DNA from: Temnopleurus reevesii | Lineage: Eukaryota; Echinodermata; Echinoidea; Temnopleuroida; Temnopleuridae | Length of the DNA stretch: 64,000 nt | NCBI GenBank assembly: GCA_036244855.1 | Contig: BQKZ01000031.1 | Location: 169,767 to 233,766, forward strand | Direction of reading: 5' to 3' | Part shown: piece after piece, positions 24,901-47,741 of the stretch | Layout: the number at the start of each line of letters is the position of its first letter | Position numbering within the stretch: the first letter of the stretch is position 1 | The notes under the pieces: model-generated | Database searches by the model: none | The model's input: the letters and a program-made list of their open reading frames with translations, nothing else | What the model was told of the DNA's origin: nothing | Program-made: the position numbers and the translations under genes

Positions 24901-25531
24901 CCCTTTCACCTCTCATCCTTTGTCTGCATTTTATATCTTGGTAATCTTAGCTCTCTCAGATGTTTAGATATGATTGAGTCTTCTCTATTTAGATGCATCT
25001 TTCAAAGAATATTTTTAGATCAATTCAGAAGGAGGTGGGTGAAATCATTTTTTTCTGCAACATATGAGGAATAATGAGTTTAATTGAGGTTTGATAAAGA
25101 TTTTGTGTTGTATTATCAAATTTTACAAATAGGAAATATATGATTTAATGGTTGTAGTATATCTGATAAAACTTGCATTGTGAAAGAAGGATAGAGGAAT
25201 TACCATACTTTTCTTCTTTTCTTCTTTGTACCCTCTCATTCATGTAGTTCAAGTTGATACGGCAGTAGCGGAGACCAAAGAGCACCTTATCGCTGAGTTT
25301 GAAGATGAAAGAACACGTCACCAGAAGCTCCTTCAAGATTACACACGTCTAGAGCAACGCTTTGACAATCTGAAAGAAGACATGCAAGCTATGGAGAGTA
25401 GTCCAACATCACACATGAATGGTGGAATGCGCCATGTACGGGCGGACAGTAGCGAGGGCGCTGAGTCTGGATATGGCACTCTGGCCACAACGACCACGGA
25501 AGATGCTGAAAATGTGGAAGTAGAGATTGAA
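3869..25531 (+). CDS. MYO5: Myosin V heavy chain, part 1: converter, six IQ motifs, first coiled coil (7 exons)
   Basis: Class V myosins are two-headed actin motors that carry vesicles and organelles. Seven exons here encode about 441 codons. The first visible residues ([15 protein letters not shown]) are the converter region, so the N-terminal ~690 residues of the motor lie upstream of the window. [12 protein letters not shown] ends the motor. Six IQ motifs follow, the canonical class V number for calmodulin and light-chain binding, then heptad-rich coiled coil beginning [20 protein letters not shown], a stretch very close to vertebrate myosin Va. All introns have GT-AG borders and phases agree throughout. 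The block ends at a phase-0 donor shortly before the N at 25937. The next exon in the sequence is from the far C-terminus, so the true continuation is the block starting at 38798. The family assignment is secure; the paralogue letter cannot be given, since invertebrates usually have one myosin V. Confidence 0.95.
3981..6665 (+). other. MYO5 intron
   Basis: AT-rich intron between the converter exon and IQ motifs 1-2. I see no repeat or ORF that I can support in it. Confidence 0.8.
6666..6877 (+). CDS. MYO5: MYO5 exon: end of motor, IQ motifs 1-2
   Basis: Encodes [20 protein letters not shown], then IQ1 ([11 protein letters not shown]) and IQ2 ([11 protein letters not shown]). Phase 0 in, phase 2 out at the gtgagt donor. 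Confidence 0.95.
6878..9786 (+). other. MYO5 intron with a homopolymer tract
   Basis: Between the two IQ exons. It holds a T-run followed by a long G-run near 8116-8146. Nothing else supportable is visible. Confidence 0.8.
9787..10093 (+). CDS. MYO5: MYO5 exon: IQ motifs 3-6 of the lever arm
   Basis: Holds four light-chain sites in a row: [35 protein letters not shown] and [11 protein letters not shown]. Spacing alternates near 23 and 25 residues as in other class V lever arms. Phase 2 in, phase 0 out (AAG|gtaaga). Confidence 0.96.
13255..13970 (+). repeat. Degenerate tandem repeat, unit about 90-100 bp
   Basis: Motifs such as ctcctggactttgc, cacacctgtgctgt and gttggtaaagttgatact recur in order several times, with point changes and indels. 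Short ORFs here come from the repeat. The array is interrupted at 13644-13837 by an inserted element. Confidence 0.65.
13644..13837. mobile_element. Short MITE-like element with TA flanks
   Basis: Ends TA|CTGTAAA and TTTACAG|TA are mirror images, about 194 bp apart. The insertion splits one unit of the surrounding tandem repeat at its ggTAaagt position, which supports a TA target-site duplication. No coding capacity. Confidence 0.55.
15521..16742. mobile_element. Non-autonomous DNA element with ~21-bp terminal inverted repeats
   Basis: The left end TGCAGGGCTCGATCCAAAAG is mirrored at the right end by CTTTTGGATCGGGCCCTGCA with one mismatch. Inside, the motif GTGACGGGACGGA or its complement recurs at about 15704, 16042, 16066, 16486, 16502 and 16700. 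No transposase ORF is visible. The ends could be TIRs plus a TGCA duplication; an 8-bp duplication as in hAT is not seen. Confidence 0.65.
17074..17163 (+). CDS. MYO5: MYO5 exon: start of the coiled coil
   Basis: Thirty codons, [20 protein letters not shown] then [10 protein letters not shown], nearly the vertebrate sequence at the lever-arm to coil junction. Phase 0 at both ends. Confidence 0.95.
17164..21491 (+). other. MYO5 intron
   Basis: A 4.3-kb intron with pyrimidine-rich patches (for example 18520-18575 and 19330-19440) and a short AT dinucleotide run near 20697-20708. No gene or recognisable element seen. Confidence 0.75.
21492..21716 (+). CDS. MYO5: MYO5 exon: proximal coiled coil
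   Basis: Seventy-five codons of Leu/Glu/Lys-rich heptads (for example [18 protein letters not shown]). Acceptor gtcacag, donor GAG|gtagga, phase 0 at both ends. Confidence 0.93.
21717..25247 (+). other. Two MYO5 introns around the exon at 23026
   Basis: Both introns are AT-rich and, apart from the 94-bp exon between them, hold nothing I can support as a gene or a defined repeat. Confidence 0.7.
23026..23119 (+). CDS. MYO5: MYO5 exon: coiled coil
   Basis: Encodes [20 protein letters not shown] and [10 protein letters not shown]. Acceptor tttttcag, donor GAAG|gtgaga, phase 0 in and phase 1 out. Confidence 0.92.
25248..25531 (+). CDS. MYO5: MYO5 exon: end of proximal coil and a Ser/Thr-rich linker
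   Basis: [20 protein letters not shown] continues the proximal coil and matches the vertebrate region. A polar linker ([20 protein letters not shown]) follows, ending VEVEIE at a phase-0 gtgagt donor. This is the last exon before the misplaced block. Confidence 0.94.
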
Positions 25532-25945
25532 GTGAGTTTCTATCGTTTGGGGACCGTGAGCTCAGCTAGCCCCTGAATGATCAAAGCTGTGCAGCCATCA
25601 TTTGTGTTTGTTTCGTAAATGTGTTTAGTTTACTTTCTTTTAATTGTTATTTCCTTGTTTGTTTGTTTGTTTTTGTCACATTATTTTTAGCTTCCTTGCA
25701 ATCTTTATTTGTTTTTTAGTTTTGTCATCTTTTATTGGTTTGCTGAGTGGCTGTATATTATTTGTTTTCAGATATAATTTTGAAGTTTTATGAAGGATGA
25801 ATGATAATAAATGACAATGAATTACTTTAGCAAGATTATTAATCTAGGATATTGAAACTTACAAAAATGATATAGTTACATCTCATCATCATTCATAATC
25901 AAAGTCTATATAAATGATGTAGTAAACACCTTTTCCNTTTTGCAG

Positions 25946-26031
25946 ACCATGTATTTGATCACAGCCAGTACTATTAATAACATCCTCCTTAGGAAAGACA
26001 TGTGCCATTGGTCTAAAGGAGTCCAAATCAG
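25946..26031 (+). CDS. MYO5: MYO5 exon: globular tail
   Basis: Encodes [20 protein letters not shown] and HWSKGVQI. Acceptor tttgcag, donor AG|gtaaag, phase 0 in and phase 2 out. Its upstream partner exon is missing from the window. Confidence 0.94.
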
Positions 26032-27291
26032 GTAAAGTTGATCATCTGAATGTAGTCATTTCATTTTGTGGAGTGCTGAATTTTGACATAATTGCTCGAA
26101 CTCTAAAACCAAACTAGTCTTTCCCATGCAGTACTATCATTAAAAAAAATGTTAATTGTTAACAGTAGCAATTCATTGCTAAAATAATTCTAATGAGGTT
26201 TCAAAATGTATTCAAATTTTATCTTCTTTAATACCACTTCAAACCCTCACATCACGAGGCATAATGTTGCCTTTAAATCATTTGTGTGAGCATCATTTAT
26301 ATTAAAAAAAATGTGTGAATGGAGAGCATGATATTGTTTTTTGTCTGTTTCTAAATTCCTGTCCTCAATCTTTCTTTCCCTCTCTCCCCCAAAGGTATAA
26401 CCTGAGTGAGCTTGAGGAGTGGCTTAGGTCAAGTCGTCTCTATGACAAGATGATGGAGACGACCCTTGAACCCTTGGTACAGGTCGCTCAGCTGCTCCAG
26501 GTCAAGAAGAGAACTGATGATGATGTGGGCATCATCTGTGAAACATGTACTCAACTCACAGTCACACAGGTGAGGAAAAAACACTGTATTAGTGATCAGT
26601 TTTATGATGTAGAAGATAAGTTGTGGTTGACGCTCTTTTATCACCAGTACAGTTTAACTGAATTTTTTTTTTTATAATCCACAAATTTGAATTTTTCCTA
26701 TCTCAATCGGGTTTTGTGTTCCCAAGAGATATGCCTTGGCAGAATTATCCATACTTTGAAATTCAAATACTTTGGAGCAATGAAATACTTAGGAGCAGCC
26801 CTTTCTTAAACTTTATATTTTAATTTGAAAATTAAATTTAACAGTGCCTCTCATTCTCTCAACGTGAGCATGTAGTGTTTTCCTCTTCAGTGATATTAGT
26901 GTTACATAAAAATGGTGCTTATACATGTAGTATCAAGTAATAGAGTTGATGCCCAGTGTTAGGGAAACTGATCAATGACTTTTTAGATGTTGCCTTTTAT
27001 AGTCATCATTTGTTCAGACATGTATATTTTTATACCTTGTTCTTTCCTCAGATCATCAAGATCCTCAATCTGTACACTCCGGATGAATACGAGAAGAGAA
27101 CCGAGATCGCATTCATCCGTAAAGTACAAGGACGTCTGGGAACGCGAGATGATCCCAAGCGCGAATCCCAGCTCCTCATCGATGCCAAACACACATTCCC
27201 TGTCACGTTCCCATACAATCCATCAAGCGTAGAGCTGAATGAAATCACAATACCAACCTCATTTCACTTGGAATTCCTCAAAAAACTCTGA
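25946..27291 (+). CDS. MYO5: Myosin V heavy chain, C-terminal end of the globular tail with stop codon (3 exons)
   Basis: Three exons encode the last ~166 residues of the cargo-binding globular tail (DIL domain). Recognisable stretches are [56 protein letters not shown] and [16 protein letters not shown], all in the order and spacing seen in vertebrate myosin V tails; the ORF ends with TGA at 27289-27291. This part of the tail binds adaptors and contributes to autoinhibition in the family. It lies directly after coiled-coil part 1 in the window, although about 500 residues should separate them. That missing material is found downstream at 36071-47127. The first exon begins only nine bases after an N. 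It should be the last piece of the gene. Confidence 0.95.
26395..26569 (+). CDS. MYO5: MYO5 exon: globular tail
   Basis: Encodes [20 protein letters not shown] through [20 protein letters not shown]. Acceptor cccaaag, donor CAG|gtgagg, phase 2 in and phase 0 out. Confidence 0.95.
27052..27291 (+). CDS. MYO5: MYO5 terminal coding exon
   Basis: Eighty codons with TGA stop: [16 protein letters not shown], then [16 protein letters not shown], ending LKKL. Length and end point match vertebrate myosin V tails. Confidence 0.96.
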   Translation: MIKILNLYTPDEYEKRTEIAFIRKVQGRLGTRDDPKRESQLLIDAKHTFPVTFPYNPSSVELNEITIPTSFHLEFLKKL

Positions 27292-27816
27292 ATATGGTAA
27301 TGGATACCAGGACATACACTGACTAGTGGACGTGTAAAAGAGACTTCATATATGATGGATAGATCATTCTACAAGTATTATCCCATTATAGATGGTTATG
27401 ATCGGGTACTATGGCTATTTCAGGACTGGAGAATACTTTAGAATGTAATTCTGGATCATGCATTGCTTTAGTAGAGGAGCAAGATATAATCGCTATGTTC
27501 ATATTCGAATTGTTGTGTCTTTCCTGTTGAATCTTTCCAATCTATATCATATGGTAACCAACCCTCCTTAGATGTATCTTAAAATATCAACACAAAGTAA
27601 TTTTTCATGAAAGGAACGCTTTTCCAAAAGTAATGATTTTTAAATGTTCAAACAGTAATTTGGCTACTAATTATAGCTCTATGAATAAGTAAGAAAACAA
27701 CCATGTGAGTTCAAAAGTTCTGCAAAAGGAAAAATCGTTCACTTTGAAGATGACTTTTACATACAAGTGAAAAGTGTGAGTTCACAAATAATCATGGTCT
27801 TTGGATGATGCATTGA

Positions 27817-27822
27817 AATAAA
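27817..27822 (+). promoter_or_regulatory. Candidate polyadenylation hexamer for MYO5
   Basis: First canonical AATAAA after the stop codon, about 525 bp downstream. Others occur further on, so use of this one is a guess. Confidence 0.3.
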
Positions 27823-29121
27823 ATGCTTACACGGGCTGCAGAGAATGAGATAGGACAATACTATGAGGTTAATCTCTAAAAAGAATTTAGTGATAGGATA
27901 AGCTGCATTCAGTGGAAAACAGACTAGATTGTTCCATTTTATAGAGCATTCTTAATTTCTAGTCAATCATAGTTGAGCAGTAGCTTTCTCGTGCAGAAAT
28001 AGTTGATTACTTTTTGTGATTTATTTCTCGCAGAGTGTTGTAATAAAATAGAATTGAAATATATAGGTAGACTTTTGCTAGTGGTATAGTGAATGCTGTA
28101 GAGCAAGTATTCTTTAAAAAAAACTTTGGCATATCCTGCATCAACTGCAAAGATAATTTTTGTCTCTTTTGCACTTTTACAAGAATCTTTCACCTCTCAT
28201 TATTGAAAGACACAACTATTTTCCAAATGTTTGTGTGTTATTATCAGCACCAATTCTATTGGCAATGAATGTTTGTGATATTCCAAGATTACTGCAGAGG
28301 TACAAGGCTTTCTTTATGAATTATAGCTTGCATATATAGTGAAGGCATTGGAATGTAGTTTAAAGTAGCACTCGTGTGTTTCGCTGACCACAATTTTCTA
28401 TTAGTTACATTATGTGTAGTTTGTAGCAAGAGAATTGAGTTGAGGAACATGAAAAATGCTTTCGTCATTGATATTGCCTTTATCCTACACAATGAGGTAT
28501 GTAGACATTTGATGCCATACTATAGTATTGAAAGTTGTACTTTGAGCATTCACTAAATAGAGACGAGTTGTAGTGTTCTTTTAATGTGGTGAGGCACTAC
28601 AGACAGAATGATATTTGCACCTATATAAACTCTCTGAAAGATGACATACTGCATAACATATAGAACTCTATGAAGGGTTATTTATATAAACTGACTAGCT
28701 CTTGTCTCAATATTTTAGACTAGAGGCAAGATTACAGATCTACCAATTCTCCTTCCTTAATCTGTTTAAATGTTCAGATCTTTCACTCAGAATGACTGAT
28801 ATATAATTCACTGTCCTGTATTTTCATGTAATTGCATTCACAAAAGATGTGTATGGTTTATTCATATTGTAATGTTTGTATATGTGAACTGGAGTTGAAA
28901 CTGATATTCTTCATGCTACATATCTGTATGCCAACTTAACAGTGCTTCCAGCCATGTATTAGAGTGATAATGATCAAACTTGTGATTGCCATTGGTCATT
29001 TCTTCCCTCCTCTTCATCTGTTCTCTTTCCTCCAATTCTGTCTCTTCTATCCTCTCTTTATCTCTATATCCATCTTCTTTTCACTTTCCTTCCATTCCCT
29101 TTTCAACTACCGATCCCTCCC

Positions 29122-29146
29122 TCTTTCTCTCTCTCTCTCTCTCTTG
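29122..29146. repeat. TC dinucleotide microsatellite
   Basis: Run of ctctctct in a pyrimidine-rich part of the MYO5 downstream region. It generates two overlapping low-complexity ORFs that are not genes. Confidence 0.75.
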
Positions 29147-32019
29147 TTCTTCTCTGATTTCTAGGTGTTGTTTTACTGGTCTTTAGAATCCCGACATCTT
29201 TATCTTCTTCTCGCACTTGTTGTAGCACAATGCATTCCAAAACTTTGTACATATCTCCTTTCTTTTCATTGTTATCCTATTGTATTCTGTGAAAGATATA
29301 TAAAATTGTTTCACATCATATTTCTTTGTTGGAAATGTTTTATGATTATACATTGGGGAGTTGGTTTTAGTCTGTAAATTGGACACTTTATTTATGACTT
29401 TGAAATTAGCATATTGATTATTTTACAGTTGAAATAGACAATAAGACATTCCTCATCAGGAAATTTTTGATTTATGTAAACAAATTATGATAGTATTCGT
29501 TTGGGAAGTAGTATTTGTAAGTATTTGTTTCAGTTATATCCAGAGATATGTATGTAAAAAATATTATTTCACATAAGAGTATTTTTATAAGATGTGAGTG
29601 ATATCGGGATGATGTGAAGTTTATGTGGACACCAATATGCTTTCTTCCCAAAACAGCATAAAGCACATTTTCCTCCCATGTATGTTAATAGCAAAAGAAA
29701 AAAATAGACAACTGTATCGTGGCTGCAAAGGAAAATCAGTAAATATAGCACATAATTTTGAACATATATTCATTTGGGATAAGATTGAAAAAATATATAT
29801 TTCTTGGATTGCAAGAATGGATAATTATGGCACACTGTAGGTTATTTGCTCAAATGATAAATCAAATTCAAATTCTTGCATATATGCTCGATGTATAGAA
29901 ATAAAGTTATACAAAGTCATATATATGCACTCACGACCAATATTGTTAAAAAAAAAAACAATTATATTTGAAAATTGAGATTGCAAGAATTAACAGACTA
30001 ACTGAAGCTGAATTTGACTTATATATAGTTTGTATATCTGCAATTATAATGTCCATATATAAAATGGGTTAATATGGAATATAGAAAAACAGTACTCATG
30101 GTATTTTTTGATAACATGATCCCAAGTTTATTATGTTGTGTATTGACAATCAGAGTGTAATCAATAGATGTAAATTTGTATTCATAGAATTGTCTATCCA
30201 TATTTTCTGCAATCATGTAGCAAAATGTTTGCAAGAAGTTGGATTGAATTAAAGATATTACTGTTTACAAAATGTTTTAAACAGCACAAGTATTTCAACA
30301 TGCCCCTGCAATCTTGTGTTAAAGTATTCATTTGATAAAATTATGCACATTTCATAATATGGCAGAATAATGTTGATTCATGTAGCATGTGACAAAAACG
30401 TAGCAACCAAGCAGCAGATAACATTTACAGAAATGAACACCCCTGCTTTGAAGTTATGTGATCAGCATTTATAGCATGTACCTCAATTAATGATGCATAA
30501 AACCCTATGCTTCTGATATTCAAGTTCCAATCCATATAAAGCAAGGCAGTCTTTCATTATTAATCGAAAAGAAGCATGTATGACATAACTGGCAAATATT
30601 TCATTGCCTAATTTTGATTATACAATAAAATAAGAGATGCTAATATGTGTACATGTATGTCCATATGTTCCATACATGTAATGTACATGAAACAGCTCAT
30701 AAACCTACAAATTTACTCATCAAACTTTGTTCTTCTTATTTTTATTTCATGTATTTTTGCTTCTGATGTTTTGATTTTGTAGTTATATGATTACTTGTAT
30801 TAGAGAGGGTGGTACATTGTAGGATTTACTTTTCGTTTGAGCAATACAATATGATTTGAAATAGATACAAATGTATGTTTAATTTATTCATAGACTATCT
30901 AATGGATTGGTGTGTGAAGATTCAGTATAAATGAAATAATTTCAAATCTTGTTTTCAATCTACTTATTATATTTTGTGATCAATTATCTCATATCTTTCT
31001 TTTTTTATATAGCTTTCAATTAAATGATTATTGAAATAATTTGAAAATTCATAAGCCATATGAATTATCTTTGTGTATTGGTATATTACCAATTACACTC
31101 TATATTTCTCAGATATTCTTCTCACAATTTGGGGTTGAAGTCCGAGTTGTCTGGTGGACGCTTGATATTTTGATGTAGATATTATGACCTGAAGAAGAGA
31201 TTATGTATAGCAGCTTTAAGTGGTAAAGTATATGTGGTGTACATGTTCAAGAAAATTGTTTTTACAGTAAAAACAGACTCCATTAAATGCACCTAAATGT
31301 AGCAAAATTGCAAGCTTATTTTTCATTATTTCATGTGTTAAATCCTATTCTGTACACTTATGGCTCCATTATGTTTGACCAAAGAGTACAATACATGTAT
31401 ATCTGTGATGATTTTATAATACAATATTAATGCTTTACACCTGTCTCCTCCAACATGTGTATTACCATTAATATGACTTCCAAAAAAAAGTGTCTTCTGA
31501 ATCATAAAAATTAGTAGGTTAACGTCAGAGGATAATTAACTTTTTTTTCAATGAAATAGGTGGTTTCACAATGGCAATGTTTTGTTGCAATGCATTATCA
31601 GCATCTATAGAATTTGGTACTCTCAGCATAATATGTTACTAACATGCTACATGTAGTGTGGCTGGTCTGTCATACTTATATTCATTCAGGGCAAGTGGAA
31701 AAGCTGAAGTTAAGGATTTTGAAAAAACAGAAGGGTTTTTGACAAAGTAAACAACTTCCATTCGCAATACCTATATGAACACAAAATACATTTCCTTCTC
31801 CCTTATTCTGCTGAGAAATGTCAGACAGGTGTCGCACAACGAACGGGGAAGCTGCTTTCTTTTATGTTCATTGAATTATTGTCAAGGCTTGAATGAAGTT
31901 GTTTTCTTTGTCCAAAATCCTTTTTCTTTCTGCTCACAGTACTGGCAAGCTCCAAGAAGACTGTCACACCTGTATGATCATAATAATCATCAAGTGCAGT
32001 ATTTCTATTGCAATATATA

Positions 32020-32151
32020 CAGTGGAACTTTACAAGCTCTCATATAACAAACTCTTGTTATAATGAAATAATTTACCCTCATACAATGTTTCCGTATTGA
32101 GAGGAAATTTATCTGGTCGCAAAAAAAACTTGTTATAATGAGGCTCCACTG
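32020..32151. mobile_element. MITE-like element, TA-flanked (132 bp)
   Basis: CAGTGGAAC at the left is mirrored by CTCCACTG at the right, with TA on both sides. Internal gttataatga motifs resemble the element at 32712, so the two are related. Confidence 0.6.
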
Positions 32152-32711
32152 TACAAATTTTGCAAATTTCACTACAGGTACATGTAACTCTGCCCAAGTC
32201 GAATCTGTTGGGACCACACAAATCTTAGGAGAGGCAAATAGCACTGGTTTTTGTATTATTTGTTCAAAAAAAACTCACATCTTTCGACTTAGACAAGTTC
32301 AACTTTGGCAGAGTTGACTGTATTTACAAAAAAGTTAGGGATCACTCTTAAATGTGTATATAAATTTAAATCAAGATGTCATAAATCTGAACATAACCAA
32401 ATGCCACTGTTCTGAAAAGTCATCAAACATACACAAGTGATTTTAGCCATTGAATATTTCTCGTTCCAGTACACATCCTTAAAAGTGTAACCATTCTTAA
32501 ATGGCATAATTAAGAAATGATACCTATCTTTATTTAGTAGTGTTCATGTATTACACCAGCATTAGCCGAGCTATGAGGATTTAAAAGGATTTCTTTCTGA
32601 GGGTAGCAATTTTCACATAGGTTCAGAGCTGCAAAAAGTTTACAAGGAGTGTGCATTAATACGCTTTCATTGGTAGAGCAAGATTCTTGGAATCGTGAAA
32701 ATATTACTGTA

Positions 32712-32886
32712 CAGTCAAACCTCGTTATAAAGAGCACTGATATAATGAGCTCTCGTTATATCAAGATAATTTTCCTGGTACCATCTCTTTGTATTTTATT
32801 GTATTTTGGCCCTGATATAACAAGGTTTCAATATAAAGAGGTACTTACTCTGTGTCCAACAACCTTGTTATAATGAGGTTAGACTG
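32712..32886. mobile_element. MITE-like element (175 bp), same family as 32020
   Basis: CAGTCAAACCTCGTTATAA at the left is mirrored by TTATAATGAGGTTAGACTG at the right. TA precedes it; TT follows, probably a mutated TA. Ends of this type are seen in Tc1/pogo-like MITEs. Confidence 0.6.
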
Positions 32887-33635
32887 TTTCAGGAATTTCA
32901 CACATTTTCTGTACACTATTTACAGGTGTAAATTTTCTACTTTCCAATCATTCCTTTCTTCTCAATACCAGAACACTTTTCAATCACTTCATATGCCGAT
33001 TTATTCAAATAGATATTTCAACACACTCTCCTGAGAAACTTGAATTCACGCAAAACTGTTGTTGCGGTGTCTTGTACAGCGCAAAACATAAACATTCAAG
33101 CACAGATATTTTTTGCAACTTTTCAAGCAAACTTTATTTTCATTGCACACAACCTTTTTAAACACATACAAACAAACAAAGGTATTAAGTTATTTTTATA
33201 TAAATACTACATATTTAGATATCTATCTACATATCAAGTCCTATGTTCACTGCAAATTATAAAACATATGTTATCAATACTGCTTTACTTTGTGCTGGAA
33301 AGTCTGTGAGCTTGTGTGAGTTGTTCATTTCTAGTCAAATTGTTTTGTGCCTTAGGTCTTCCAGAGACAATATCTCTGATGAAGAATCAGTGAAATATGT
33401 ATGTGTAATAGTAAAAAAACAAAAAAACATTTATCAAGAAAATGGTCATCAAATATACAGGTGAACATTTACATGAACTAAAATCTGCAGGCGGAGTAAA
33501 TGCAAGTTTTCGAAAAATTTGTTTCATCTTCACTCCCATATATCAGTCTATTATTCAGGACAAGAATTATTTTACAACAAATTCAATCACTATAATTACT
33601 TTCCTAAATTAGCAACACTAAAATTCTGAATTCTN

Positions 33636-36070
33636 TGTACATGTACAGTACTTTTTAAACATACCTTCATTGGCAGAACCATAATTGTTCCTTATCCATG
33701 CAGATATATGTATCGGTTTTCAATCATATTTTTATCTTACTCATTAATTGTTGCCATAAATTGTGAATATTGTATTTTGAAGTGACCATTATTATGAATA
33801 AACCTCTTGAAATTCAACATATACCTGTATTTATTAATAGGTTGCCATCATCACATATTCACACACTGTACATGAAATGTTTGAGCTAATCTTCCCTTAC
33901 AGCCCTTGTGCCATACGTAAATACCACATTCCTCCGTCTTGTATAACTCCGTCTTCGCTCATCATGGATATTCAGAATATTAGCCTTTCCTTATTGGCTC
34001 TTTTGCCAACGGATCAGTAAGTACATTGAAGTCATGTGATCTTGGACGTACCATCAGCTAGTTCATATGGGAAAGGTAGTCTATGACCAAGACTCTGAAA
34101 CCTTTCTAGTAGCTCATCTAGTGTACCCCTCTTCCTTCTGCTCTGCCTGTGCTATCTTCTCTTAACAAATGTATAATCAAGCATGGTTAGAAATAACTCA
34201 ATATATCTATCGGTTGTAAACAAAACAAAAACTTTTAACACTGTCCAGAAAGGAAACTATGTGCATTTGATGATTGTAATGCATTATGGATCCGAGTATA
34301 ATCTGTGGTGAAAAATTAAATATGATTGATCTGATAATTGATTTTCATTTGGGAGAAAAATTGAAAATCAAGTTTGTACAGTTATATTATATGAACATTT
34401 TCATCCACTGAATCAAATGACAAAATGAATATATTTATAGCATAATATAAGATTATATAATAAATGATTATATATACGGCAGAGAAAGATATTTTGATTT
34501 TAAACCGTATTAAATAGATAAATAAATAAATGAATAATTTGGATGATTATTAATAGGTAATCATAATTTCACTCAAGATATCAATAAGAAATCAAAGATA
34601 TCTACATTTGCATGAAGGTCTTGAAAAAAATTCAACACAAAGAGAATCAAGCAACCGTTATATTTTTTTTTTCTGTTTTCTTATTTGGCAATCGGTGAAG
34701 GAAGATTATGAAATTATAGAATATGCATTGAAAAAAACATGCTTATGATCTATTGCTTCTTGGTCATTTTAACAGATTCTCTACTAATCTAACTTACTAA
34801 TATTGACAGATGAAATATTTCAATATTATCTTGTTCCTTTATTTTCAGAATATATATATATCCTGATCTGCACCAAATAGATATCATTATTGCACCTTAT
34901 GTATCTTCTCACGAGTAGAAATTTCAAGCTTTTATTTTGAGCTCTGTGTCACCAAACATTCTATTCTTTTTCATCTATGAGTATTCTCTCAAATCCTTCC
35001 TCCCTCTCACTATTCTCCAAAAATTATGGACGTCCAAGACAATGAATTTCAAGTACTTCTGTATTCAATGGTAATACTACATTGAAAATATCAATTTAAC
35101 CAGACTATTATGTTACTCTCCTTCAAGATATGATTATTGACATATAGATTTCTATATATATATGATTTTGTTTATGTTAATTATGTTTTAGATGTGTGGG
35201 TAAAAGGACATTAATGAATTTCATTGTAGATATTTGCACCTAATATTTTCGTTTGGAAATATTTTGATTATGTAAAGAATAATTAGATTTAACCAGAAAT
35301 TTGTTTTACTTTGAAACTCTTATAATATATTCATTCATGCACCTTAGAGTTCCATTCATGGGAAATATATTCATCAAATAACAGAGAGTTCATGTGTGAG
35401 TCCAATACTACAACTAATTACATTGCTCTTTTTAAGAGTTTAATAAGATATATAAATACAAATTGTTATATATTCTGTTGTAAGCTATTACAATCTACAG
35501 CTTTCATTTCATTTAATACGTTCATGTAATAATCTTCACAAGAGTGAATATTTTTTAGACAAAAAAAAAATCATGTCAAAACAAAGAGGACATGTCATTT
35601 TTTTTTAAATGTTAATGTTAACTTTTAAAAAAGCTTTGACATTATGCATAACTGCATTATATTACATTATTTAACTTTTTGAATAAATAGGTTCACAGTT
35701 ATTTGCAGTAGATGTAGAAACTAGAAGTAAATGCCTCATAAAGCAACAACAAATTGATGTAATTCTGAAGTATTTGTCACTGAATACATTTCTCAAAAAA
35801 TATCTTTATTACATGACAACCAACTTGAAAGCACAATATAGTTAATTGATATAATGATACACACATACACACACTCCATATGATCACCACAAACACAATA
35901 ATGCATCTCATTGGGCTTCACAAACTTGTTTCACATATTGTTATCAAAGCATTTTTCTCTTTCTGGGAATAGGAATTTCTTTCCGCATAATACTTCTGGT
36001 AATATTAAGGAAGTGGCATCTACTCGTCATTAATCTATTCTTACAACATTTCCCATTTTGTTGTTTACAG
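33636..36070 (+). other. Intronic sequence at the start of block C
   Basis: Between the N at 33635 and the first globular-tail exon. AT-rich, no supportable gene. In the corrected order it is the 3' part of the intron that begins at the GC donor at 47128. Confidence 0.6.
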
Positions 36071-36244
36071 TTGCCACAGCTAATAACATTACAGACACAC
36101 ACATGTCGGGGGTACCGTCAGAGTTCAGTGATACACCTGAGTCAAGTCATGCCAACGTGAGAGTAAAGGAACGAGAGGAGATGATGGGCATGCTTGAGTA
36201 TAATGCTGAGGAGGAACCTAAACTACTCAAGATTGTCATTATTG
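36071..36244 (+). CDS. MYO5: MYO5 exon: linker into the globular tail
   Basis: A polar stretch ([20 protein letters not shown]) leads to [20 protein letters not shown]. Acceptor tttacag, donor ATTG|gtaaac, phase 1 in and phase 1 out. Confidence 0.93.
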
Positions 36245-38763
36245 GTAAACACTCATAAATTTAGATCTTTTTGTATCATATTTCTTTTGTAAGCATTTGC
36301 TCTCTCTTGGTATTATATTAATATAGTCGGGCACAGAAGCTCTTCCTATTTGAGAAAGAAGGGGTAGAGCATTTAGATACCATAAGTATGGAAACATGAT
36401 ATTGAAGCATTATTTATAACTTAATTGTACATCTATTTCTGTTTCCTCTTCAGTGAAAATGAATTTTAGCCTTTGCTACAGATTCTTCATGTGGTCTCAA
36501 CCAATTCTGTAAGTGAGAGGATTTGAGAATGTATCAAAAAGGAAATTTGCAGACAAAGATCCATTGTCAAAAATTGTGTTCATTCCATTGTTTTATTTAA
36601 GCCTGAGATGTTTAAATATTTTTTATTAAATTGAACTGATAACACAATCAAGTTCATAAACTGAGATGATGTTCACAGAATAATGATAATAAACCCTTTC
36701 TCCCTTTGCTCCAATTTGTATACCAGACTTCATCCCTGAGGTAGCGGAGGGTCATCTACCAGGCTTACCAGCTTACATCATCTTCATGTGTATACGCCAT
36801 GCTGACTATGTAAATGACGATAGGAAGGTCAAATCCCTACTCACTGGGGTTATCAATGGCATCAAGAAGACTGTCAAGGTCAGTGTGAAAGTCATTTCAG
36901 TAGACAAGAAATAGGAATGTCAAGTTTCAAGGTCATTTCTGAACCTGGTACAGGCTCACAGAATTTGATATATAGGGTATTGTCTTTCTAAATTGAACTC
37001 AAAGATTTTCCCAATCTTCTTTTCAGTCTTTACTCAAGTCTGCATTTGACAATATCTATGCAAATTTTTCCAATATCAGAGGTTGTGCGTATTTTGGCTA
37101 AACCAGGATTATCAAATCTATATAATCATTGCCATATTCCTTTTGTTCCTTTGTTTTACAGAAACACTTTGAAGACTTTGAGTACGTGTCTTTCTGGTTG
37201 ACGAACACCACAAGGCTCCTTCATAATCTAAAACAGTACAGTGGAGAGGAGGTAAGATCATCTACTATAATGTTTATTTAATGAAGAACAAAACAACCAT
37301 AACAAAATCAACATATCTAAAATACAGTTTCTTTTCTTAAACATTTTAGTTGGTATACTCTGTGCATGTACATTTTAGAACATTTGATAGGCTTTTACTT
37401 GAGCATAGTTCATGAAATCTCATCTCTATTATTCTTTAACTGATTGAGTACAAGTAACACCAAATTGTCAAGATTTATTATAATATGTTATGTATCTATA
37501 ACTCTTTGTAATGAAAACCACTTAATGAGATTATTTTACTAATTTTGACAAATAATCCTTGGCACATCTGATGAGTAGGAAAGAAAAGCTATGAAGGTAA
37601 AGTAATCATGTTCCTTTGTGACAGAGGGCTTTTGTATCAAAGAAATTCTCATTTTTACAATAGCATTTTGGTGCATGCATGTGAAATGAATTGAAATCTA
37701 GTTGGTAGATTTGGGGTTATTTGCTATAAAATGAAAGAAGGTGATTGAGGTTAAATTTTTGAGGAAGTAATATGGTTAGGGAACCCCAAGAATTGAAAAT
37801 AATATCTAGTGATTTGCTTTAAACATTTCTATTTGAAAGGGTCTTGCTGTCTTTCCCCTTCCTTTTTTTCCTTTTCTTTCATTGTGCATTGTATTTTCCT
37901 CTCTGTCTCTTTGATAATGTTGAAATAATGGTATTGAAGAATAGATTATGTTTAAGGTGAATGAAACTGACACCAACTTTACTTTTCTCCCTTGCATTTT
38001 CTTGCTTTTTAAAAATCCCCAATATTGGAAATAAATGTCAACTTTTGTTATGCAGCCTCATGAAAATATAGTTTATAGATATCAAAGAGAGTTAATGTGT
38101 AATGACTTTCGGTTACAAACATTTTGCATTGATGGGAAAGTTATGGTGTTGTAAGGTTAGTTATGCTGAATGTCTGAGAAGAATATATGGGCCTATTATG
38201 TTCTTTTTACCTTTCTATTAATGCATTGACGTACAATCAAACCTGTCTTAGCAGCCACCTGTTTATATTGACCACCTATCTAAAGTGCCAACTAAATTTA
38301 TTACTTCCGGATCAAAAGGTGTTTTATAGAATTTGTCTATAGAGGTCACTTGTCTACAATGGCTAGTTTTCTGTCTCCCTTGGATGGCCACTAGACAGAA
38401 TTGACTGTATTGAGTTATTTTGAATTATGAATATTGATTTTTGAAGATGTTGGCACTTTTGAAACATTTACAAAGGCTAGACTTTTTTTTTTTTATTCAT
38501 GTCATTTGTCATCCTTTAACAGAATGCTTTAGCCCCCATAGTAATTTTGTACTTTTCTAACATCCAACAGCAATGTGGGTGTCTATGTCCCCTGAAAATG
38601 AGGAGAAATCCTAATATTGCATCAATGTTCTCCTCTGTACTCTTGTATGCAGAGTTTCTCATCAAAGAACACGGAGCGACAGAACGAGCACTGTTTGAGA
38701 AACTTTGACCTGTCAGAGTACCGTCACGTGATGAATGATCTAGGGATCCATATCTATCAGATG
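36071..38763 (+). CDS. MYO5: Myosin V heavy chain, N-terminal half of the globular tail (4 exons, last one cut)
   Basis: Four exons encode about 175 codons of the first half of the globular tail. [20 protein letters not shown] marks the domain start. [40 protein letters not shown] and [20 protein letters not shown] follow in the family's order. The first exon enters in phase 1, which is the phase left by the exon ending at 47127. The last exon runs straight into the N at 38764 after IYQM, with no donor site, so it is truncated by the assembly. The next ~75-80 residues known from the family are not in the window. The block ought to precede 25946-27291 and follow 38798-47127. Confidence 0.93.
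36727..36878 (+). CDS. MYO5: MYO5 exon: globular tail, subdomain 1
   Basis: Encodes [20 protein letters not shown] and [16 protein letters not shown], a highly conserved stretch. Phase 1 in, phase 0 out at AAG|gtcagt. Confidence 0.95.
37162..37251 (+). CDS. MYO5: MYO5 exon: globular tail
   Basis: Encodes [20 protein letters not shown] through [10 protein letters not shown]. Thirty codons, phase 0 at both ends. Confidence 0.95.
38234..38407. mobile_element. MITE-like element, TA-flanked (174 bp)
   Basis: Left end CAATCAAACCTGTCT, right end AGACAGAATTGACTG, flanked by TA on both sides. It lies in the MYO5 intron between the exons at 37162 and 38653. Internal ggccac/gtctat motifs recur in the copy near 39741. 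Confidence 0.6.
38653..38763 (+). CDS. MYO5: MYO5 exon: globular tail, cut by an N
   Basis: Encodes [20 protein letters not shown] and [17 protein letters not shown], then meets the N at 38764. The bases after the N are the 3' end of an unrelated intron, so the exon is incomplete. Confidence 0.93.
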
Positions 38764-38797
38764 NTCCTGACCAAATGTCATTCCATCATTGTTACAG

Positions 38798-38974
38798 GAG
38801 CAGGGAGAAGAAAAGGCTAGCATGGATATCAGTGTGTTCATCAAGCTGCAGCAGAGATGTAGAGATCTAGAGAAGGAAAAGAGTAAACTAGAAGTTCAGC
38901 TCGAGAAAAGGGAAGTTGATGGACGTAAAAGGGCTAACACTATTGAGAATGAACTTGATCATCTTCATCTTGCA
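38798..38974 (+). CDS. MYO5: MYO5 exon: medial coiled coil
   Basis: Encodes MDISVFIKLQQRCRDLEKEK and KRANTIENELDHLHLA. Acceptor gttacag lies 33 bases after the N. Phase 0 at both ends, fitting the exon that ends at 25531. Confidence 0.94.
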
Positions 38975-41900
38975 GTAAGTGTATTAACACGATTGTTTGA
39001 TTTCAGTAGGGTAACTCCATCTGTGATTGAATCACCGCTTTAAGTCATGGGAAGTTATTGGAGAGAACAAAATCTATAGGAATTATATATTTGCTCAAAC
39101 ATTTTTCATGAAAATGTCTGACATTGAGGTATCTTTGATATTAACCTTGAATTTGTTAAACACATGATTGTATTTTTCCTTTACTGACTAAGATTTTGAC
39201 AGAATTTGAATTGATTTTATACCTTGTCCTTTGGCATTTCATAGATTAAAAAAGCATGAACATGACAGGTCGCACCTGTGAAGAAATTGTCCTCTGGGGA
39301 GATGATACAGGAAATAATAGAATCATAACCTAATTGAAGAATGACCTGGACAACCTACGGCAAAATTATGAAGGTGATGAAAAAGAGCTGGCCGTTGTTC
39401 CGTTGACTTGGCGATTCACACAATCAAAGTCATGTCTTGTCTTGTCATCTACCTTCTTGTAGAACCAAGACCTGAAGGAAGAGAATAACCGACTAAAGAA
39501 TGACTTGGAGAACCTTCGACGGACCCTTGAAGGAGATGGAGATGAGAGTAATCCTGTCAAGATTCTCAATGATCAGGTGGATGTACTCAACCTGGAGAAT
39601 GAGAAACATCGGCAAGAAATCGTCAAACTCAAGACGGACCTCGTCAATAGGAGGCGGCAGTGGGCATTACAGGTCAGTGGAACATCAGTCATTCAGAGGA
39701 AAGGATTGTATTAAAAAAAGAGGATGTACACATTCAAATATAGTCAAACCTGTCTTAAATGTCAACTGTATATAGAATCTATCTATTCATAATGATCACA
39801 TATACTGTATCCTTATAGAATGAAAAAGTGGTATAGGACCTGTGTGAAATAGCCACTGGTCTATAGTGGACAACTATCCCATTATTCCTGTAGAACAAAG
39901 TAATGTAGGACCTGTATAAAATACTGAAACTGAAACATGATACATGATGACTGATTTGACTAACAAAGCTTGGAGATAAAATGTCAAGAGAAAGAATGTT
40001 AAGTTATGGCAGATATTCTTATGAAATTGCAGACCATTGGCTCTCTGTGTTGGTAGAATGATTATAATGTTTGTGGTTACCCAATTAACTAGTAATATAC
40101 ATCTGTATTATTTTAGACAATTATATTATTATTAATTATTATTAATTATTATTATTTTCCACATTTTCTCTCCGTTCCATCCCATGTATGCCATCAGGAA
40201 GGAGACAGTGTAGAGATAGGAATCAACACTGACCAGCACATGTTGGTCAGTGATGAAGATTTGGATAATCTACAGCTAGACTCAAGCCTTATCTCAGACT
40301 ACAAGTCCGTCAAGACAACCAGCCAGTAAGTCACATTATGAATATTCTTTACTCATTTTTTTCTTCAGATTTTCGCTTGGTGATTTTCAAGTATTACCAT
40401 TTTGTAGCGATAAATATTGTGTTCTGGTGCAGATTGGGTTTGACAGTTCTTCTCATCTCTTTGTAGATTATTTATGAGACAACATTGTGGAAGGCTACTT
40501 GATCATAAACTCTCTTTCTTTCTCTCTCTCTCTCTCTCTTTTCCTTTTTATTCTTCTTCCTCTTATTTTGTCTGGCTCTATGTCTCTGTATGATCATCTT
40601 TGATTTCTTACTATTCTCACCTAAATTGATAACATCACTGACTCATAACAGTACAAAGAGCTATGCTCTTCCCCACATAATATTGAATAGAAATCCTAAA
40701 ACAGAGATTACAAATTCTTGAACAACTTGATTTATGATCATTACTGAATGCACCTATTTTGGGAATACAGTAACAGAATTAATTTGTGGTTTCAAAGTAA
40801 GACTCAATTTCAATGGCTTATGCACATCATCAGCAGCCATCGAACAAACATTTAATTTCTAAAGTAAGTTCTTTTCCTTTCATGTAATAAAATACACTTC
40901 ATGAGCTTCATATACACAGTGCAAACTATCTCATGGGGCTGCAATTCATTCAAAGCTCAAATATTAACTGCTACTTTTTTCAAGTCAAATATTGACAATT
41001 TTTTTAGAAACTGACTTTTAGTCACTAGGCTTACTTGAATGATTGTATTGATTCGTAGGGCAAAGAAGCACATAGCATGAATAATTTGCACAAGTATCTA
41101 ATCATTCTGTGTCATATTCAGGAATATTTCAAAACAGTTTCCCAAGAACTAAGTGATCTGTTAAATAGGAAACCAAACTACAAAACTTCTGAGTATATTT
41201 GATTACAACTTTGGTATGTGTAAATAGAAAGTAGGATCTATTAAATTGTTTTTTGGATGTCCTAGGGTTACTGATAACCATTATCTACCTGTATATGATC
41301 CCTTTATTTCACAAAATAAATGAAAGACACGTCATGAGTACTAACACTGGTCGCTTTATTAAAAAAAATCATTTTGGATGTAGTCAATCTTAACAGGACT
41401 CATTTTAGAAGCGAGATAACAGTTTACCCATATTTTCAATCTTGTTATACTGTCAATACATGCTGTTCTAAACCCAAGTCAGCACTGTCAGTCACCTCAA
41501 CACATCACACATGTGCATGAAAATATTGTGTTCCCTTGTTTTATAACCAAGTACGCTTAGTATGCATGGTTCTATACGCGTGTGAAGTACATTTATTGTA
41601 ATCTGTGACGCTTCCTCTTTGTACTTTGTAGCCTTTTTAGTCGAACAAATTGATATGCATGCACAATGTCAGATAAGAGTTTCATATCATTTGAATGTAT
41701 TATTCTGATTGTTCTCCTTCAATGATAGAAATTTGTTGTTGTTTTTCATCTAGGTCTAGTTCTGTGGATCACTTCAAAGACAGTATTTGAAAACCTCTTT
41801 ATTTTGTAGTTATTGAATAATGTATTTCTTTAGTTATGATTTGTGAATATTTTTACTTCATTTTTTTTTTTACTGTACCTTTTCCCTATCCCAAATGACC

Positions 41901-44900
41901 ACTTCCATTCCCTTGGCTACCTAAAACATAAACCCCCTCACGCATATATCCAAAAAAAATCCTTTATTGATCATTATTGAATTCCCCTCACAAAACAAAA
42001 CAAAACCCCACAATTCCAATATGACCTTCCCGTACTTTTACCCCCACCACCCTGACACTTTTATTATTATCTTGCTTAGTTTGTTCAATGCCCTGGCACA
42101 CAGTCAAACGAGTCTAGAAGAGACTGTCACAAACTTCGGCAATCTGGCTGAAAATCACAATGACCTCCTGGTTGCTAAGATGTGAGTAACCATGGCAACG
42201 GTTTCTTGACCATTGCAAACACCTGTATTGGGGTGCTTTGGATATGTTATTGGGCATGTCAGAATGAAGGCTGCGGTGTTAATACAAACTTTAAAATTTA
42301 GAATGTCTGTAGGGACGAGTTGTATTGAATGGCTTTCATACATTTTAAACTATATTTGAGTTAGAATGATTTTGGGGCTGCTGTTTAATTCGCTAATAGG
42401 CTGTTCATCTCATAAAATTTTGGTTATTGATTCTGGTCTTGCTTTGCAGTTTGAAATAATTTTCTTGGTATATCCAACTTCATTCTCACTGAATTTCATG
42501 AATGAATTTCCTTCTGTCTAATCAGATTGAATAATAGCTGTGCTCTTATATCCATCTACATTACTCTTTGGTCATGACATCTGGGCTGCTTTGGCATCAA
42601 TGTGCACCCGCTTTCTCTCCACTTTTCTCTTGCATGTCAAAATAGCAGCTTAGTTGGATATCATACACATCTTCTGCATGCATTTTAGACTGTAGTCCCA
42701 TCTGTGCCTTTCCATGTTTGTTGAAGAGCTACCATCTCACAGCATCAAGCTCACGTTACTACCACATGGCTCTCAACTCTCCTCTTCATTTTGCTGAACA
42801 CAAGGAATCACACTGTATCTACATAGTTCTGACAATAGTGAACTGTTTAACATGTATAAATGATGCTTTTTTTCTATTTGAATAATAAAAATGGTTTGAT
42901 GAACCGTTGAAAAGTTGATATGAACACACAAAGATTGTGGTTATTATTGTTTGTTTAGTTTCAGAAGCAGGAAAGTACATGTAGGATTTATATAAATTCT
43001 TTGAGTTACAATTTACATGCAATTTATTATTCAACTCAAAGAGTTTGAGAAATGGCAAGTATATGCAAATGAAAAATATATCCTTTCATTTTCAGAAATT
43101 GATGCAAAATTTTGTATCATATAAACTGGATAATACTTATCTAGTTGAATGTTTTTCAGAAGTGATATTTTTCTCCTCTTAAATTTTAAACTTCTCCAAT
43201 GACAGAGTTTGTTTTCAAGATCAAAGCTTTTGACCCTGAGGCTATATTCTTACAATTCGTTTTTTATATTATATTAAAGTTTCAAATTCATTTTCTTAAT
43301 ATGAAGCATACCGGGTACCATAGAACAAATATGCTGGTTTCATATTTTGTATGGGAAGTTTATTGTAATTGCTGGTTGAAATGAAATGGCAGAAATACAA
43401 TTGCATGGCAGGCAAATGTTAGTCAGAATCAAATGTGGTTTTAGGCATGGATTCAAAGGGATAATGCAATATTTCTCAAATTAAGCTTTTTTCACAATTT
43501 TAAAGTGTCACCACATTATGTTATATTACACAGAGCACTTGCTTAATCCAAATTATTGTTAAACGCATATTCCTACCTCAAAATTATATTTTAGTCCAGT
43601 TGGAAGTATTCTCTGGCATTTACTCTCAAAACTCTTAGCCTTTTTATGAGATAATGAGATAACACATATGTATTCCCTCATATCGTCTGTGTTTTCACAA
43701 AGTGAAGGAAGCCAAAGAGTATGGTTACAAGAGATAAGTTACAAATCCATTGAAACGTGTCCTTCTATAGAATTAATAGGTTGTTCGATAGGATGTCCGT
43801 TGAAATGGTGCTATGTAAGAATTTCTTTGTCTTTATGCAAGAATGCCCTTTGGCTCCTGTCACTTCGTGAAAATACTGGCGATATATTTCACATAGATGT
43901 TTAAATACATCATTATATGTGTATTTTCCCCTCAGGGAAATGTGCTCATTTGTGCACATACTTGTACAATTCTGTATATTCAAAAAGAGATAGACGTTGA
44001 CAGCTTATTGTCAGGATATTGTTAACACATTTGTCTTTTAGTAATATCATTGATAATGAATGCAAATACTGTAGAGCTATTTACCCAATCATCCAAGTAG
44101 CTTCTTCAATGAGCTGCCTCAGGGATACATCACATGTACGCTCAACATATTTTATTTTGGAAAGATATAAAGGCCCCATCAAATTCATGTGGCTCTTTGG
44201 TCAGCACCATTTTTGGGGACAACTCCCCAGGGATTCCTCACATTGGAAAACTCCCCAAATGGGCTACTTCCAAAAAAAAAAAAAAATTCCCCTAACATTG
44301 ATCCCGCTAAACAATTCACCTGCAGGACAACCCCCCTTGTTAAAGACAAAATTAACCGAACATTAAGATATATTATCTTGGGTGGATCTATGCTCCAGAA
44401 AATGGGGGAAGTCATCCTCTGGCGGAATAGACCCCAGGGCTATTGTCCATGGGGAAAATTATCCTCTGGGGGAGTTGTCTAGTGTGAATTGTCCCTGGGA
44501 GAGCTTTCCTGACATGTTTACATTGCAATTACCATGCCACATGACAACCATGAATACATTTCATTTCACATTTACATTTCACATTTACATTTCACATGTA
44601 GGTAGACAAAACTCCATTATTCCGTACATTGGTTTGTTATGATTATTAAACTTCATTAATCATGAAAGTGATTCATGTCTTGTCCATTCCACTACATATT
44701 ATTGTTTATAACTCATTCATCTAATATTGATTATGGGATGTGTTGTTTGACTAAACCTTTTCTCTAAATGTATGTGCATTATCAAGATATAATGGGATGA
44801 AATGTGTATTCGATAACAGATTGTAGAAAATATTTGAGGCAAACATTTAGAATATTTTAACACTATGTTGAATGGAAGAATTGTCAATAACTTATTAAAC

Positions 44901-47127
44901 AGAATGGATTGAAAATTGTAATTAAATCATTTTATATTTAACCTTGCTGGCTATCAATTGAGCAGGTTTAAGAAAACAATAACTTAAAATATACCTTGTA
45001 TTAAAGTGATAACTACAATCAGACAAAGATGAAATTTGCTACTCGTCTAATTTAAAACATCGTTAAGGATATTTTGGGGGGCAATTAAGTTTTTTTTATA
45101 GTGTTTATATGCAGTGTGGATGAATAAAAATGAAGCTTATATATTTTCATGTTGTATCTAATAATTGATATTGTATTCATGGTCTTTTCTAAAAATGTAT
45201 GATTTCCTTCCTAATAGAATTCTTGAGAAAGAGATCCAGGCTCTTAGAATGAACTATGACTATGAGAAGGCTGATCTCAAGGAACAGATTGCCAAACTAC
45301 AGAAAGACAATGACAGACAACAAACTATCATTGGAGAGGTGAGCTGATTTATGAAGCAATGGTGTATAGGATAGTGACGAGATCTTGTTATGTCTATAAA
45401 TTTATGCTGCTATATGATCATAAAATGATATAAATTTGCATATTCCAAAGAAATAATCAGCTGGACTAGTTATGTCTATTATATTCCACGCGCTATAATT
45501 CCAAGCAAGATTTTGAAGCTTTGAGTAATCTGTAGTGGTGACTACGGACGCTGTGACCAGGCCTATCTATCACGTATTGGCCTTGTTAGTCACATGCGTG
45601 CGTGCAGTAGACGTTGACTGCCTTTATAAATCTTCATCCGCGAAGCAAAGCCAAGAGTGCTTTATGTGTTGGATAGTTTTATTTTCTTTGACATTGAATT
45701 CTGAATTATTAAAGATTAAAGATAAGAAAAGTATGGCTCTTTATTTTCGATCTTGGTTATGTAATGTACTTTACTCTCTAGTTAAAAGATACTTTTCTAC
45801 AATTTTACCAACAGAACCTGAAGCTGACACCCAATGCCAGGGTTAGCCAAGCAATACAGTTTGAGCTCTCAAGATTAACCAATGAGAATATTGTAAGTTG
45901 ATGTAATAATTCTTGTTCGTTGTGATGGTGATGGTGGTGATTATGATGATGGTGGTGTTTGTGATGGTGATGATGGTAGTGCTCATGGTGATGGTGCTGG
46001 TGATGATTACAATGATGGTTGTGGTGGTCCCGGTGGCAAAGTTAAGTGGTGGTGGTTGTGATGGTGGTACCGGTGGGGGTGGTGGTAGTGATAATGATGA
46101 TCATGATGATCATGATGATAGTGGTGGTGCTTGTGGAGATGTCAGTGGTGGTGATGATGAGGAGGAGGAGGAGGAGGATGATGATGATAATTATGATGAC
46201 AATGATGTGACTGATGATAGTTGGGACCTGTGAAATTATATGATAAATACTATTGTCTATACGGTAAAGTTATGATGAATTAGACAGTCCAGACAATCAG
46301 ATTGTTTCTGTTACTACAGCTTATTTATAAATAATTGTACTTCCTTCCATTTAGAATCTGATGGAGGAGAAAGAATATCTGGAGAAGTTTGTGAAGAAAT
46401 TAAAGAAGCAGCTGAAGTCAGCACACAAGAGATTACAATCATCATCATCTGCTGATGTCGGAGGAGGTAGATTATATGATCAGACTTACTTCATATTCCA
46501 ACTCCATTTAAAAGATAAATCAAGAAGACCTAGATTTCATTCAAACAAGATGTCGTACTTCACATACATCTAAAATTCCCCTGGCTAATTTTAAAGTTGT
46601 TTTTAATGAAACAATTTTCATAACACTTTGATGCATTACATTTTAAGACATTTTTTTCTGTTGTAATAGATAGTGCAAAGTTTGATTAATTTTCAAATTT
46701 ACTAATTGCTCCCCCATCCCTCAGCTGCAAAAGAAATTTACCTGGCGGGTGGATACGTTCAATTTAAACAAATTTAAACAAATTTTGCTTATGATTAAGA
46801 TTCTGCTAGGATCAAAAGCTCAAGCTCTTTTTTTACTTCAAATTTAAACAAAATGTGATATTAGTTACAAAATATATTACATGAAGAATGACTTAAGTAC
46901 CACCTTAGGTGGACGGAGGCATAAAAAATGGTGAATTATTGTTGTAGTAGCAACATAATGGAAGAGAGAAGTGTGATACTCCATCTTCACTGTTTCATAC
47001 CTTGTATATTACCCCCGGAATGCTTTGCATGTATGTTAAAACAGAGAAGTTATATGTTTGCACTAATCAGGATTAGATGGGCAGCTTGAAACAGTCATAG
47101 AATCGTCTCAAGAACAAGAAACAAATG
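38798..47127 (+). CDS. MYO5: Myosin V heavy chain, part 2 of the coiled-coil stalk (8 exons)
   Basis: Eight exons encode about 320 codons of the medial and distal stalk. MDISVFIKLQQRCRDLEKEK matches the vertebrate region where the second coil begins. Later landmarks are QTIIGENLKLTPNARVSQAI and ELSRLTNENINLMEEKEYLE, close to the distal coil of myosin Va just before the globular tail. The block enters in phase 0, fitting the end of the exon at 25531, and leaves in phase 1, fitting the exon at 36071. In the window it is wrongly placed after the globular-tail exons. The stretch around 40198-42181 (acidic, then EETVTNFGNLAENHNDLL) is less conserved and corresponds to the spacer between coils that is alternatively spliced in vertebrates. 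Confidence 0.93.
39323..39387 (+). pseudogene. Degenerate partial copy of the MYO5 exon at 39463
   Basis: About 65 bp similar to the adjacent exon; it reads LKNDLDNLRQNYEGDEKE beside LKNDLENLRRTLEGDGDE in the real exon. An in-frame TAA lies just upstream and no clean acceptor is visible. It is probably a relic of local exon duplication. Confidence 0.5.
39463..39672 (+). CDS. MYO5: MYO5 exon: medial coiled coil
   Basis: Seventy codons (NQDLKEENNRLKNDLENLRR, DVLNLENEKHRQEIVKLKTD). Acceptor cttgtag, donor CAG|gtcagt, phase 0 at both ends. A degenerate copy of part of this exon lies about 90 bp upstream. Confidence 0.93.
39741..39890. mobile_element. Decayed copy of the 38234 element
   Basis: Begins tagtcaaacctgtcttaa and contains agccactggtctatagtgg, both shared with the element at 38234. 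The right end is not clear, so it looks truncated. Confidence 0.45.
40110..40155. repeat. ATT trinucleotide microsatellite
   Basis: Imperfect run of att/aatt units just before the acceptor of the exon at 40198. Confidence 0.75.
40198..40325 (+). CDS. MYO5: MYO5 exon: acidic spacer of the stalk
   Basis: Encodes EGDSVEIGINTDQHMLVSDE and SSLISDYKSVKTTS. Low heptad content. Acceptor catcag, donor gtaagt, phase 0 in and phase 2 out. Confidence 0.87.
40510..40542. repeat. TC dinucleotide microsatellite
   Basis: Run of tc repeats in the MYO5 intron after 40325. The rest of that intron to 42103 holds nothing I can support. Confidence 0.75.
42104..42181 (+). CDS. MYO5: MYO5 exon: short spacer exon
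   Basis: Encodes QTSLEETVTNFGNLAENHND and LLVAK. It fits the flanking phases (2 in, 2 out) and has acceptor cacacag and donor AT|gtgagt. Too divergent to place by similarity alone; the reading frame and phase carry the call. Confidence 0.8.
42182..45217 (+). other. MYO5 intron with a small inverted-repeat cluster
   Basis: AT-rich. At 44217-44236 and 44461-44480 a gacaactcccc motif appears in opposite orientations, and related fragments lie between them, suggesting a degraded repeat. Nothing else is supportable. Confidence 0.6.
45218..45338 (+). CDS. MYO5: MYO5 exon: distal coiled coil
   Basis: Encodes ILEKEIQALRMNYDYEKADL and KEQIAKLQKDNDRQQTIIGE, close to the vertebrate distal coil. Phase 2 in, phase 0 out. 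Confidence 0.93.
45815..45892 (+). CDS. MYO5: MYO5 exon: distal coiled coil
   Basis: Encodes NLKLTPNARVSQAIQFELSR and LTNENI. Twenty-six codons, phase 0 at both ends, donor ATT|gtaagt. Confidence 0.93.
45918..46220. repeat. GATGGT-type simple repeat
   Basis: Long imperfect run of gatggtg/gatgat triplets in the short MYO5 intron between the exons at 45815 and 46355. It opens a low-complexity Met/Val then Gly/Asp ORF that is not a gene. Confidence 0.85.
46355..46466 (+). CDS. MYO5: MYO5 exon: end of the distal coil
   Basis: Encodes NLMEEKEYLEKFVKKLKKQL and SAHKRLQSSSSADVGG. Phase 0 in, phase 1 out at GAG|gtagat. Confidence 0.93.
46782..46838 (-). repeat. Dispersed short repeat, copy 2
   Basis: Inverse complement of 2181-2240, core tgctaggatcaaaagctcaa. 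Family not recognised. Confidence 0.6.
47071..47127 (+). CDS. MYO5: MYO5 exon with a GC donor: coil-to-tail linker
   Basis: Frame and phase (1 in, 1 out) bridge the exons ending at 46466 and starting at 36071. It encodes LDGQLETVIESSQEQETN, resembling the short vertebrate linker before the globular tail. The donor reads ATG|gcaagt, the common non-canonical GC-AG type. Too short to be found as an ORF; called from phase and position. Confidence 0.75.
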
Positions 47128-47741
47128 GCAAGTTATGAGAAGACATCACCACAAGTACCACTCACATTTAAAAATTACCCTTCACAGGAATATGTACCCG
47201 TCCCACTCTCTTGTCTTTATAACCCTTGTGATATTTTAACATATTTTAATCACATTCTTCAGTTCCAATGGAATTTACTGAGCATGGGATTACTCTTCTG
47301 CATTCAAACTCATTTTCACCATTTTCACTACACAAGGTCATGAAAATTCATATGTTGACCTACATTTATGCTTGTAACAAATGATAAAACATGTACACAC
47401 CCGAGTGTAACACTTTTAGAACTACATCAATTTACAGTTACAAGGTACATAANTGATTTTTGAATGATTTCTGCATTGCCAATTTAAGGATTTATGACCA
47501 TTCTAGTGATTATTTTCATTAAAAAAATTCTCTGCATCCAACAACTGATGGTGATATATGATAAAGGTCAGATCTAGTGTACAATTCTTTTCTCTTTCTG
47601 CTCATACATCAGGTATATTTTTAGAGCATTACATCGTCCTGAAAGGGTATTAACCCTAATCCCATTGGGATATTTCAATCACCTTGGTCCATTGGGGGGG
47701 GGGGGGCTTTTTTTCCCCCCCCTCTGATCTTCGCCGTCGAT

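Follow-up and report, generated by a model that had tools for sequence, protein, structure and literature searches.

The exons encoding the tail of a myosin V gene lie in scrambled order in the draft genome assembly of the sea urchin Temnopleurus reevesii, and on the sequence evidence set out below we regard this as very probably (roughly 0.96) an error of scaffolding and not new biology. The DNA analysed (the window) comprises 64,000 bases, C31:169767-233766, where C31 is sequence BQKZ01000031.1 of a 558-Mb assembly in 10,433 pieces. Read along the + strand, tblastn of the Lytechinus variegatus protein P0001 places residues 115-1179 on contig A, 1751-1916 on contig B, 1457-1670 on contig C and 1180-1456 on contig D, so that the scramble described in an earlier, sequence-only reading of this DNA (the initial annotation) is real; the same scramble was obtained with all 11 of the homologues tried (P0001-P0011, from 120 fetched). 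Of A, everything ahead of residue 730 falls upstream of the window, and residues 1-114 gave no match on the fetched stretch of C31.

By its domains the gene is an ordinary myosin V: a motor, IQ motifs, coiled coils and a DIL domain are all present. When its exon translations were used as the query, the best of the 2213 proteins over threshold was L. variegatus myosin-Va (P0001, 1916 aa), the next eight being six named echinoderm proteins (from a second sea urchin, two starfish, a sea cucumber and two crinoids) and two unnamed ones. Motor (PF00063) exons follow one another in the expected order along C31, the majority of them upstream of the window, whilst matches to the IQ motif (PF00612) comprise one stretch in 6666-6878 and three in 9776-10096, and those to the DIL domain (PF01843) lie at 25943-26032 and 26393-26569. 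In a Pfam scan of nine exon translations, four matched myosin V domains and four matched nothing. The coil exon at 25247-25531 matched four unrelated Pfam families, one of them barely above the cut-off (PF10400, 22.7 versus 22.4 bits), and these we take to be chance matches of a coiled coil. A search for the DIL domain identified a single myosin V tail in the assembly; a further DIL match, on C2332, is only distantly similar to P0001.

Six single Ns interrupt the window, at 25937, 33635, 38764, 47453, 48421 and 52355 (those named in the initial annotation were located at or adjoining the sites it gave), and upstream of the window C31 has seven more together with long runs that read N. Contig A, which occupies 1-25936 of the window and begins at C31:169104 after a single N, carries the end of the motor (exon match 3864-3980), the IQ motifs (6666-6878 and 9776-10096) and the first coiled-coil exons (17074-17163, 21492-21716, 23026-23119 and 25248-25531), all of these features and those that follow being on the + strand. 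At N 25937, which would be a false join, the gene passes from residue 1179 to residue 1751. Contig B (25938-33634) encodes the DIL domain and C terminus in the last three exons (25946-26031, 26395-26569 and 27052-27288, with the stop codon at 27289-27291) and would belong after C. N 33635, probably a second false join, takes the gene from residue 1916 to 1457, and contig C (33636-38763), the true place of which would be after D, carries a cassette exon with a TAA codon (33903-34016) followed by exons at 36071-36244, 36727-36878, 37162-37251 and 38653-38763. The last of these is cut by N 38764, the putative false join of C to D. Contig D (38765-47452), encoding the second coiled coil, would follow directly on A; its exons lie at 38798-38974, 39463-39672, 40198-40325, 45218-45338, 45815-45892 and 46355-46466, with a cassette exon at 42081-42182 that matches Diadema and two starfish. 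N 47453 joins D to contig E, a join that would become B to E were the order restored.

How closely the breaks in order follow the joins was examined using 31 exon matches of more than 40 bits, overlapping matches (including the D exon 46355-46466) having been dropped. Seven of the 30 intervals between these exons hold a single N, and all three discontinuities fall inside those seven, just as the initial annotation had it in placing every break at a single N; three breaks placed at random would all fall within N-containing intervals with a probability of 0.0086. In the 23 intervals free of N the order is kept throughout. The gene's four other single-N joins are also in order, residues 115-1179 being collinear across them up to 25531, and one of the four has an exon repeated on both sides. 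We then scored the 48 arrangements that are possible when B, C and D may change both place and direction. The proposal that A-D-C-B, with orientations kept, restores co-linearity was borne out, this arrangement being the best of the 48 with 2973 bits, compared with 2675 bits for the next best and 2335 bits for the order as assembled.

Further evidence comes from an unplaced scaffold, C10344, first seen in a survey of myosin head exons as a near-copy of a C31 motor exon. C10344 is 13,600 bases long with one single N, at 5332, and the whole of it aligns to the minus strand of C31 at 94.6-98.6% identity: bases 1-5331 correspond to C31:135690-130473 (split into two blocks by 199 bases that do not align) and bases 5333-13600 to C31:145133-136884. 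C10344 thus carries the motor region of this gene a second time, probably as the other allele. In the sense of the gene, residues 282-357 precede residues 225-302 on C10344, whereas on C31 the same two pieces stand in the correct order, 1193 bases apart, with no N anywhere in C31:130000-146000. The two pieces of C10344 are thus swapped at its single N with their orientation kept, and since C31 has the right order without an N, the assembly makes this type of error elsewhere in the same gene.

These results bear directly on the possibility that the order given, which is after all what the assembly states, reflects a real genomic rearrangement that broke myosin V in this individual or species and left it non-functional. 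The four single-N joins that are in order could be held to favour this. Each breakpoint would, however, have to coincide with an assembly join, the one myosin V tail found has most of its exons 80-100% identical to P0001, and C10344 displays a like swap at a single N where C31 is correctly ordered without one. We consider a rearrangement very improbable. The single myosin V tail also fits an assembly fault, as does the sequence missing between C and B (see below).

If the order A-D-C-B is restored, both the A-D (0/0) and the D-C (1/1) junction are in matching splice phase. The initial annotation had proposed that phase fits at 25531 to 38798 (0/0) and at 47127 to 36071 (1/1); the first junction is confirmed but the second lacks the backing of homologues. 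A 57-base open stretch with a GC donor does exist at 47071-47127, as the second junction needs, and would be an extra cassette exon with phase 1/1, but its LDGQ motif occurs in none of the 120 fetched homologues (each of which represents a cluster at 90% identity, in which an isoform could be hidden). The conserved route from D to C runs instead from 46466 (phase 1) through the cassette exon 33903-34016 to 36071 (phase 1), and direct joining of the D exon end at 46466 to 36071 is also in phase. The cassette exon, which has a counterpart in Lytechinus and Diadema, codes for a hydrophobic stretch and here contains the in-frame TAA; this may mark a poison exon, or else be a polymorphism or an error in the sequence.

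Residue 1670 is the last that C encodes, the contig breaking off inside a coding exon, and the exon of residue 1751 begins eight bases after the start of B. The 80 residues between C and B (1671-1750) gave no match with E up to 10 in the searchable assembly, which excludes the stretches of N, and sequence is therefore missing between these two contigs. Despite this, the joins at the ends of C and B are written as single Ns.

Matching phases at the A-D and D-C junctions, with a frame open apart from the TAA in 33903-34016, are also what would be seen if the DNA were truly scrambled and a complete protein were made via trans-splicing or the joining of separate transcripts. A normal gene whose scaffold had been misordered would show the same match just as well, however, and the records of the homologues are those of ordinary single proteins. 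We hold trans-splicing to be less probable even than rearrangement. Either of the two would need breakpoints that coincide exactly with the assembly joins, and nothing that we found favours one or the other. The homologues have their regions in the usual order, P0001 coming from a 75.8-Mb contig, although these are protein records and not genomic exon orders.

The initial annotation also stated that no region of the protein is encoded twice. This holds for the tail but not for the motor part outside the window, where a single N at C31:117940 has the exon of residues 126-174 both before and after it. This N is also flanked by tandem arrays (positions 7424-9511 of C31:110001-120000) in which a unit of about 177 bases, made up of the closing part of a myosin motor exon and intron sequence that follows it, is repeated. 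That each block might come from a different, tandemly duplicated myosin V copy is as improbable as trans-splicing: part of the gene is indeed present again on C10344, but blocks A, B, C and D cover each tail region once, end to end bar the 80 missing residues, and the DIL search gave no other myosin V copy, the similarity of the C2332 match to P0001 being only distant.

Further matches between contigs are seen beyond N 47453. The start of contig F (48422-48821) repeats an inner part of contig E (47745-48135), the two being about 91% identical, and a match of 42 bases links F to G close to where they are joined (52191-52232 versus 52356-52397); these matches may represent unmerged alleles or repeats. 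A reverse transcriptase fragment (PF00078) lies on the - strand at 60583-61140 and is probably a piece of a transposable element.

How might the scaffolding error have arisen? That contigs B, C and D were set in reverse order with orientation kept, as the initial annotation suggested, is backed both by the 48-arrangement test and by C10344, and we infer that in the draft scaffolding the tail contigs were reversed from a true order of A-D-C-B. The one-N joins would be accounted for if the estimated gaps were negative. The likeliest cause, held tentatively and at somewhat less than an even chance, is that a mate-pair library contained inward-facing pairs that were taken for outward-facing ones. 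A misreading of this sort would turn X-Y into Y-X with both orientations kept. The gap would then equal the insert less the lengths of the two contigs, a negative value wherever the contigs exceed the insert, as at 5-9 kb. Contaminated mate-pair libraries are reportedly the subject of a paper by Sahlin and others from 2016. Inward pairs are described in PMC3158087 as an artefact of mate-pair libraries, under 500 bases in length and easy to exclude. The 1193 bases that separate the C10344 pieces in C31 exceed that length, and both points speak against inward pairs as the cause. PMC4864936 describes, as a fault of scaffolders, local misordering of contigs where the constraints are weak. Insert-size noise was set aside as a cause for C10344, on the reasoning that the order in a two-piece scaffold should follow the strands of the linking reads.

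Contig ends and allelic sequence provided little further information on the true joins. When 300 bases from each end were compared on the same strand, the ends of A, B, C and D had no informative overlap in either the given or the restored order (the longest shared words being 7-10 bases), the F and G ends being the sole pair to share a long word (37 bases). In searches for an allelic bridge over the true joins, the end of A matched only itself, as did the end of D and the start of C; the end of C and start of D matched themselves and a dispersed repeat (40 of 792 candidates scored), and the C/B stretch, searched as protein, matched only C31.

Swaps of this kind look rare in this assembly. In the survey of myosin head exons, which scored 65 of the 201 candidates and yielded 71 matches across 22 scaffold strands (C31 among them), 42 of the 49 adjacent exon pairs run forward, six are repeats of the same part and one runs backward, whilst a parallel survey of dynein heavy chain (PF08393), with 103 of its 106 candidates scored and 97 matches across 18 scaffold strands, gave 66 forward pairs, 12 repeats and one backward pair out of 79. 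The two pairs that run backward each stem from an exon set present twice (a duplication), leaving no swap in 49 + 79 pairs, counts that do not measure an error rate per join as Ns were seen in few of the surveyed scaffolds. Three fetched stretches of these scaffolds contained one single-N join, which is in order and belongs to another myosin gene, and a run of at least 350 Ns. Exon sets occur twice in a row for a myosin head at C3849:22940-31846 (period about 7.8 kb) and for a dynein heavy chain at C1264:6-4222 (period about 2.4 kb), reflecting either real duplication or both alleles side by side.

As biology, the scramble is without importance. Its consequences are for users of the assembly: models of this gene will probably come out split or chimeric, and wherever contigs in this assembly are joined by a single N their order should be held unproven. 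A systematic comparison of probably allelic unplaced scaffolds with the main ones could reveal more swaps without recourse to reads.

Set beside its closest known relative, the gene resembles L. variegatus P0001 in its motor, IQ motifs, coiled coils and DIL domain, with most exons 80-100% identical, and differs in the order of the tail exons as assembled, in the 80 residues not found and in the TAA within one cassette exon. The fault itself resembles the scaffolding relocation error of read-pair scaffolders described in PMC4864936, in that neighbouring contigs are misordered within one scaffold whilst the contig sequence is intact; specific to the present case, by comparison with that description, are the reversed order with orientation kept and the single-N gap, seen both in the myosin V tail and in C10344.
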